A stretch of 40,976 bases of DNA, from contig JANYDQ010000030.1 in the NCBI GenBank assembly GCA_025363555.1, forward strand, positions 1 through 40,976, given 5' to 3'. This DNA comes from Bacteroidota bacterium (GTDB taxonomy: Bacteria > Bacteroidota > Bacteroidia > 2-12-FULL-35-15). This document shows, piece after piece, positions 9,613-16,301 of this stretch; the stretch's first letter is position 1; every line of letters begins with the position of its first letter. The notes beneath the pieces are model-generated. The model worked only from the letters and a program-made list of their open reading frames with translations. It was not told the origin of the DNA and made no database searches. The position numbers were made by a program, and so were the translations under genes.

Positions 9613-10125
9613 TAATTAACTCAAGTTGCTAGTTCGTTTTCTACTTAATTTGGGCTTAAAGTCCCGTAGGGAAAGGATATTGGTAGCAATTGATAATTGA
9701 TTAGAAAAAACAAGTCCTGTAGGGACGAAATAATGGAAACTATTGTATTTATTAGCATATTTCGTCCCTAAGGGCAATGTCATTAAGTTAAGGAATGTAT
9801 TCATAACTCTGAAAGAGTTAAATATGAATAGCCCCCAATGAAATTGGGGGTTTTGAAATAATGAATGGTTATCACAACTCCGGAGGAGTTGAACATTAAT
9901 ATTCAACTCCTTCGGAGTTGTTGTGTGTTGTATATCTTTGTTTCCCCCAATTTCATTGGGGTCTATTCACATTCAATCCCTTCGGGATTGCAAACTTTCT
10001 TCCTTAACTTAATGACATTGCCCTAAGGGACTTAAAAAGCGTTTTTGTAATTTTATCTACCGATATAAAGTCCCTACGGGACAAGGGATGCGGAAGTTTT
10101 TACAACTAGCAACTTGAGTTAATTA
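9613..10125. mobile_element. 513 bp compound palindromic element with 22 bp perfect ends
   Basis: A 22-base end at 9613-9634 (TAATTAACTCAAGTTGCTAG...) recurs as its exact reverse complement at 10104-10125. Inside, 9775-9795 (CAATGTCATTAAGTTAAGGA...) pairs perfectly with 10000-10020. The segments around 9825-9849 and 9939-9965 (CCCCCAATGAAATTGGGGG and its mirror) also pair with few mismatches, and so do CAACTCCGGAGGAGTTG and its partner near 9903-9921. Each arm is itself built from small palindromes such as GTCCCTACGGGAC and AATCCCTTCGGGATT. No real gene lies inside. It resembles the mosaics of short palindromes common between Bacteroidota genes, packaged here as one symmetric unit. Mobility is inferred from the ends; no target duplication is obvious. 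Confidence 0.7.
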
Positions 10126-15199: not shown

Positions 15200-16301
15200 A
15201 CCAAAATATTTATACATAGATGATGAAAGTGGACCATCTGAAAAATCCGCACTAAATGTTTTCAATGACTTAGGTGTTATTGAAGTTGAGTTATTCAAAC
15301 TCTCCGACTTCAGAGAGTTTGGGAAACTAAGAAATGAGTTAGTTGAAAGAAGAAAAAACAAAACCTTTGACGGAATTATTATTGACTTACGCCTTGATGG
15401 CGATGGAGCAGATAGAGTTGATTTTAATGCAACTTCAATAGCACAAGAGTTAAGGTCAATTACTGCAAGAGGAGATATTAGTGCCTTTCCTATTGTCCTT
15501 TGTTCAACAGAACCTAAAATCAGAGAAACATATGATGCTGATAAATCGAGCCATGACCTATTTGATTACAAGTTTGAGAAATCAATGAATCCTGATTCAC
15601 AAAGATTTTCAAGAAAGTTATTTTCATTAGTTAAAGGTTATGACTGGCTAAATTCAGAAAAACTAACACCTGAAAAAATATTTAAGGGAGTTGACACAAA
15701 TACTTTAGACACACGAATTTTAGAACGCTTTGACGAAACAAACAAGCTTGTTGTTTACGACTATGCTCACTTTGTTGTAAAAAATTTATTTCATCACACA
15801 AACCCACTTTTAAAAGACAGGATTGTTGCTGCAAGATTGGGTATTGACAAAGAGGCATCTACTAAAAGTTGGTTTACATTAATGGAAAAAGTATTTGCCC
15901 CTGCAAAATATTCGGGATTATTTTCTGATGGTTGGGACAGATGGTGGGCTGATTCTATTGTAAATATTTTCAAAGACCTAACTGGAAAACGACTATCATT
16001 TTTAAAAGCAGAAGAAAGAGTAAGGCTCTTAACAGACAAAACTGGAATAACAGGACTGGTAGCTGCAACACCGATTAAACACTGTCAAAGCACAGAGTTT
16101 TGGACTATTTGCGAAGCGTATAAAAAACCTTTAGACCCTTTAGAAGGATTCAAGATTTTCGCTTCATCTGAATTAAAACCTTGGCAAGAAAGCAAGTATT
16201 TGTCATTTGATGCAATCGTGGAAAGGGTTGGAGTTGAAAAAGGACTAAGACCTCACCCTTCAGAAAAAGAAAGAATAAAAGAATTAAAACGAACTCTTTA
16301 A
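15192..16301 (+). CDS. Receiver-like protein with unknown C-terminal domain
   Basis: The first 135 of 369 residues read as a response-regulator receiver. YIDDE holds the acidic pair Asp10-Asp11, Asp65 in IIIDLRLDG is the likely phosphoacceptor, Ser105/Thr106 in IVLCSTE follows, and a Lys sits at 127 or 130. The domain has a longer-than-usual loop after Asp65. The remaining 230 residues contain no DNA-binding or enzymatic motif that I recognise. Notable segments there are SDGWDRWWADSI and CQSTEFWTICEAY. Its start lies eight bases inside the ATPase gene, so the two are coupled and probably form a phosphorelay or complex. An output through protein contact, not a HTH, seems likely; this is inference. 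Confidence 0.8.
   Translation: MSKPKYLYIDDESGPSEKSALNVFNDLGVIEVELFKLSDFREFGKLRNELVERRKNKTFDGIIIDLRLDGDGADRVDFNATSIAQELRSITARGDISAFPIVLCSTEPKIRETYDADKSSHDLFDYKFEKSMNPDSQRFSRKLFSLVKGYDWLNSEKLTPEKIFKGVDTNTLDTRILERFDETNKLVVYDYAHFVVKNLFHHTNPLLKDRIVAARLGIDKEASTKSWFTLMEKVFAPAKYSGLFSDGWDRWWADSIVNIFKDLTGKRLSFLKAEERVRLLTDKTGITGLVAATPIKHCQSTEFWTICEAYKKPLDPLEGFKIFASSELKPWQESKYLSFDAIVERVGVEKGLRPHPSEKERIKELKRTL

Follow-up and report, generated by a model that had tools for sequence, protein, structure and literature searches.

Two MITEs derived from IS982 insertion sequences are described, MITECca01 of Cardinium (PMC9769881) and the cyanobacterial Nezha, cited in PMC3733652. In Porphyromonas gingivalis BrickBuilt_18 encloses MITE239_11, a MITE within a MITE (PMC4596501), while IS elements use REPs as insertion targets (PMC1525189), and dimers of REPs are found inside larger palindromes (PMC3733652). 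MITE-in-MITE nesting, entry of IS elements into REPs and REP dimers within palindromes are, in other words, already known (PMC4596501, PMC1525189, PMC3733652); our literature search for nested IS982 MITEs found none. The TnpA_Y1 enzymes of subclass 1.2, recognised by the signature Y---Q--HH, are reported to be in general devoid of IS200-type hairpins and not to share the properties of IS elements (PMC6006769).

In this work, we are presenting the analysis of a palindrome of 513 bases (9613-10125), located in a window, i.e. the whole analysed stretch of DNA, of 40,976 bases from a Bacteroidota bacterium. With a probability of roughly 85% we read it, from sequence comparisons, as a composite in which non-autonomous elements of three kinds are nested: a MITE with IS982-type ends, a MITE with IS4-type ends inserted in it, and an array of six hairpins in the middle. 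Its symmetry stems from this nesting, since self-complementary units, each centred in another, give one large palindrome.

The palindrome and its outer IS982-type layer

The palindrome is intergenic, lies between two genes and starts 8 bases 3' of the asparaginase stop codon. Folded as a single DNA strand it reaches -136.4 kcal/mol, which is far beyond chance: sequences with shuffled dinucleotides gave -44.5 +/- 4.5 (z = -20.7), and none of 100 folded as well. The original prediction of a large palindrome with a perfect 22 bp terminal repeat was confirmed, the arms 9613-9634 and 10104-10125 being complementary at 22 of 22 positions, and the mirrored CCCCCAAT and CAACTCC modules which it described are present. 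The perfect inner arm pair exists as well (9771-9795 and 10000-10024, enclosed by a 41-nt arm pair at 88%), with a length of 25 bp instead of 21 bp. Comparable inverted-repeat arm pairs at most 700 bases apart were absent from the rest of the window, with the sole exception of one short overlapping palindrome at 15727-15766. A search of Rfam gave chance matches only, to microRNA hairpins of plants and animals far under the gathering scores, and a literature search with the end sequences themselves returned one irrelevant hit.

The 22 bp ends proved to consist of a 16-bp TIR, ACTCAAGTTGCTAGTT (9619-9634 on the plus strand, with its complement at 10104-10119 on the minus strand), whose sequence is common to IS982 elements, and of a 6-bp target-site duplication TAATTA (9613-9618 and 10120-10125), which follows the family pattern TAN1-3TA; as TAATTA is itself palindromic, the duplication looked like part of the arms. 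The 16-bp core forms the inverted ends of gene-less units of 102, 205 and 259 bp in the same genome, and other genomes, mostly those of cyanobacteria and Bacteroidota, have it in at least 119 stretches. The proposed genome search for the same ends showed them recurring together on contigs C392, C156 and C113 and between the end of C347 and the start of C35, as well as in many other genomes, and the suggested non-autonomous mobile unit is supported. Exact duplications of 5-7 bp, nearly all of the form TAN1-3TA, bound 64 of 104 distinct outer end pairs, where about 8 would be expected with shuffled right flanks.

IS982 transposases are encoded by elements of about 0.93-0.99 kb which have the outer ends and occur in a further genome of the Bacteroidales (L085; NF033520, 175.6 bits at a cut-off of 130) and in the congeners G013 and G021; the transposases of L285 and L288, elements with the same TIR, reach 186-188 bits against that cut-off. 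A damaged IS982 copy with the outer ends is found in G027, and plasmid-borne IS982 elements of cyanobacteria have the near-identical ends TAACCCAAGTTGCTAGTT. The outer shell thus combines the TIR of an autonomous IS982 element, a target-site duplication and multiple dispersed gene-less copies; judged by these features it belongs to the MITEs derived from IS982-family insertion sequences, and an IS982 transposase would mobilise it. TIR pairs 1.2-2.1 kb apart (L096, L074) were rejected as autonomous elements, as they enclose unrelated genes (RNase H and others) and no transposase. No intact IS982 gene above the NF033520 cut-off was found in this genome, which may leave the window copy stranded; as the IS4 genes of the genome are moreover located at contig breaks, current mobility is doubtful. 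Comparison with an empty site, proposed in the original prediction, was not successful, because gene order differs in the congeners: in none of them are the asparaginase gene and the downstream gene still at most 1.5 kb apart.

Cyanobacterial copies with the outer ends cluster at 132-155 bp, near the 134 bp of Nezha. In the cyanobacterial MITEs L112, L104 and L117 the interior seems to consist of short heptamers in tandem or of GGGGGG-rich repeats; the same outer ends thus enclose a different filling in each host.

GTCCC hairpins and the inner IS4-type layer

The filling of the outer unit here comprises GTCCC hairpins. Two of them form an inverted pair of tagged, REP-like hairpins, GTCCCGTAGGGA followed by ATATTGGTAG at 9661-9686 (plus strand) and CTACCGATAT followed by GTCCCTACGGGAC at 10057-10082 (minus strand), each hairpin being trailed by ATATYGGTAG; the outer element has a second GTCCTGTAGGGAC hairpin at 9714-9726 (plus strand). 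The motif GTCCCNNNGGGAC occurs at 23 places in the genome compared to 3 for the reversed-pattern control, and some of its clusters are bare, without IS982 ends. The hairpins resemble REPs/REPINs in being paired in inverted orientation and dispersed in the genome; their GTAG tag, however, is on the 3' side, several bases off the hairpin, and not directly at its 5' foot.

One more hairpin, GTCCCTAAGGGAC, is split into a left (9764-9774) and a right piece (10021-10031), both on the plus strand, by the inner MITE (9775-10020), which has the IS4-type TIRs CAATGTCATTAAGTTAAGG at 9775-9793 and 10002-10020 and is flanked by a 9-bp duplication CCCTAAGGG (9766-9774 and 10021-10029). Excision of 9775-10020 together with one CCCTAAGGG leaves 258 bp, which agree at 231 of 256 aligned bases (90%) with the copy on C392 of the same genome, an uninterrupted one without the inner unit. 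The CAATGTCATTAAGTTAAGG ends, with up to 2 mismatches, occur 36 times in this genome, and they are present in 11 of the 119 genomes searched. In G064 the same left TIR belongs to an element (L289) with an IS4 transposase (NF033592, 122.5 bits at a cut-off of 115) which is split over two frames, and C-terminal parts of related IS4 transposases end at the same TIR here, in G026 and in G034, L022 and L032 being among these loci. Complete copies of the inner MITE are bounded by duplications of 9-11 bp, perfect ones of 10 bp at L031, L188 and L200. From its TIR, which is that of an autonomous IS4 element, and these duplications, the middle layer would be an IS4-derived MITE, presumably moved by an IS4 transposase.

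The 77 distinct inner-end flanks define a GC-rich, symmetric target, with C at -8 and G at -3 in 65% each, in contrast to a GC content of 36% in the window. GTCCC hairpins are a recurrent target of IS4-type ends, also in G064, G013 and a Flavobacterium, and nesting like that of the window is found in G013, in a Flavobacterium and at a second place in this genome, although poorly matching flanking copies at some nested sites (L087, C347/C35) count against it. Both junctions are common to two composites of G013 at different sites (C292 and C414; L282 and L284), which suggests that composites move as one unit; this is not proven, as the inner unit is inverted between the two.

Several further observations concern this layer. 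The opposite orientation of the inner unit in L282 and L284 suggests inversion or exchange between its inverted ends. The end of C347 overlaps with the start of C35 (L010, L006), and the two seem to belong together as another nested composite built in the same way, of which C100 (L301) looks like the uninterrupted counterpart. Some arrays of G021 (L319, L328, L334) keep the linkers but have stems unlike all others, and they lie within a variant IS4-type end, CAATGTCATTATTTAAG. On C254 (L029) an inner-type left end is followed by part of an IS5/IS1182-like transposase with full-length relatives on C127, C400 and C161.

The six-hairpin array and Y1 genes

The array (9805-9989) consists of hairpins H1 (9805-9819), H2 (9832-9850), H3 (9875-9891), H4 (9904-9920), H5 (9944-9962) and H6 (9975-9989). 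Relatives of it were found in 10 of 36 congeners, in some copies without IS4 ends; judged by this distribution, the array is an independent dispersed family. When 13 copies are aligned, the linkers (AAATnTGAATAGCC and its mirror) stay constant and the stems vary, with 97.4% of the stem cells paired. Double changes affect 22 of 42 stem pairs and 77 cells, compared to 20 +/- 4 cells in shuffles, and shifting the stem partners by one column destroys the signal; this covariation shows that the hairpins are conserved and not why, kinship of the copies and template switching being caveats. Arrays were also noticed under another end sequence, CATAGCCGTCAGGTTAAGG, in G026 (L331, C2) and G014 (L338, C15), so at least two IS-type ends carry the array. 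Two arrays of G014 without IS4 ends (L332 on C12, L324 on C26) are centred in other inverted repeats, in L332 AACTGTTCGGAAGAAA...TTTCTTCCGAACAGTT, as if arrays too landed in the centres of hairpins.

Y1 (IS200-like) genes occur in this genome, and neither they nor RAYT genes were found beside the GTCCC hairpins of this assembly; the original prediction had advised to look for a RAYT-type gene. It is in relatives that its association of the small hairpins with IS200/RAYT-like Y1 genes finds support. Such genes are situated among GTAG-tagged GTCCC hairpins in G003 and G016, and among tagged GTCC(C) hairpins in G026. The hairpins beside a Y1 gene of G014 (CCACGACC...GGTCGTGG) are those inside its IS982-type and IS4-type MITEs, and on C141 of G013 a Y1 gene, truncated by the contig end, directly adjoins half an array. 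Outside the genus, in Persicobacter, a Y1 gene sits between hairpins 3 and 4 of the six-hairpin plan, with three hairpins on each side, and the same organism has a gene-less six-hairpin copy and half copies elsewhere. In all six, the gene for the tyrosine transposase is flanked by the same hairpins, as in REP/REPIN systems. Around 17 Y1 genes, 23 tagged hairpins were counted at distances of up to 450 bp, compared to a mean of 0.35 and a maximum of 3 in shuffles, while slightly more flanking DNA farther away has 2. The excess is strong but uneven: beside several genes there are no tagged hairpins, and five, of doubtful type, belong to the single gene L355.

The Y1 genes score 27-38 bits with the RAYT model NF047646 (cut-off 80), too low for a RAYT; they reach 62-86 bits with the IS200 model NF033573 (cut-off 55). 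They carry the motifs DH[IV]H, WQ and Y---Q--HH and occur in Bacteroidota, the last motif, that of subclass 1.2, being present in most open-frame proteins. On balance we favour, with some reserve, the view that subclass 1.2 TnpA_Y1 do have IS properties and hairpin partners, namely a GTAG-trailed hairpin or a unit of three hairpins whose linkers are conserved and whose stems covary; these units would spread gene-less as inverted pairs and serve IS982 and IS4 MITEs as landing sites and filling. The REP search of PMC6006769 required GT[AG]G to adjoin the foot of the hairpin, and a distal GTAG tag could therefore have been missed.

Origin of the composite and comparison with known systems

The original prediction regarded all 513 bases as one unit, possibly moved by a RAYT/IS200-like tyrosine transposase acting on hairpins, and indeed the small hairpins match those beside the Y1 genes of relatives and this genome has Y1 genes. 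For the ends this proposal failed, and for the hairpins it probably holds. IS200/IS605 elements make no target-site duplications and have hairpin ends without TIRs, whereas both the outer (IS982) and inner (IS4) ends here are DDE-transposon TIRs with duplicated targets, and the outer unit occurs without the inner one; a single element of this type is thus highly improbable. Stepwise insertion of unrelated repeats, with ends never recurring together, had been named as evidence against one unit; the stepwise insertion was found, but the ends do recur together.

It is rather doubtful that Y1 enzymes play no part in moving the hairpins and that these spread only as passengers of the IS982 and IS4 shells. 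In this genome most of the arrays found do lie within IS4 ends, and template switching in quasi-palindromes can yield compensatory stem changes without selection, but shell-less arrays and bare GTCCC clusters exist, the Y1 genes of G013 and Persicobacter lie inside or beside the same hairpins, and tagged hairpins are enriched near Y1 genes. Retention of the palindrome as a transcription terminator or mRNA-stabilising hairpin of the asparaginase gene would agree with its start just past the stop codon and with 4 terminator-like sites compared to 0.7 in shuffles. These matches, however, follow from the palindromes themselves, the families are found at many unrelated sites with a patchy distribution, and no excess of promoters was seen, which makes this explanation improbable.

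For the nested composite, the sequence itself shows the layers, their TIRs and duplications, a counterpart without interruption, parent transposases in elements that have these ends and, in relatives, the same hairpins next to Y1 genes. The following order of events is probable. A 258-bp IS982-family MITE, already with its inverted pair of GTAG-tagged GTCCC hairpins, would have landed after the asparaginase gene, duplicating TAATTA. An IS4-family MITE would then have entered the centre of one GTCCC hairpin, duplicating CCCTAAGGG, by means of a transposase which seems to favour GC-rich, symmetric targets. The IS4 shell holds the six-hairpin array, which is probably an IS200-like (Y1, subclass 1.2) element in its form without the gene. 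IS982 and IS4 transposases may move the two shells in trans, and Y1 enzymes the hairpins.

The composite explains how a large, near-symmetric bacterial palindrome can grow, through insertion of self-complementary elements into the centres of others, and one set of IS982 ends turns out to be common to Bacteroidota and cyanobacteria, the filling being specific to the host. For an orphan group of IS200-like enzymes it proposes candidate DNA substrates, so that their activity becomes directly testable, and this link to subclass 1.2 is the part most worth testing.

Like MITECca01, the outer layer is short, gene-less and has IS982-type ends; unlike in MITECca01 and Nezha, the interior varies by host and in several cases matches the Y1-linked hairpins which that host itself has, and it contains a second, nested MITE. 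The Y1 genes share motifs and a Bacteroidota host range with subclass 1.2 of PMC6006769, but have tagged hairpins or triple-hairpin flanks which recur gene-less. Insertion of an IS into a REP-like hairpin and hairpin pairs within longer palindromes are shared with the cases of PMC1525189 and PMC3733652, which are not known to include the alternation of DDE-type shells and Y1-linked hairpins seen here. As in BrickBuilt_18 with MITE239_11, one MITE family lies inside another in a Bacteroidota genome; the ends there are of IS5 type and here of IS982 and IS4 type, and in the present case a hairpin is split in its middle by the inner unit, so that one symmetric palindrome results, which holds a third layer.
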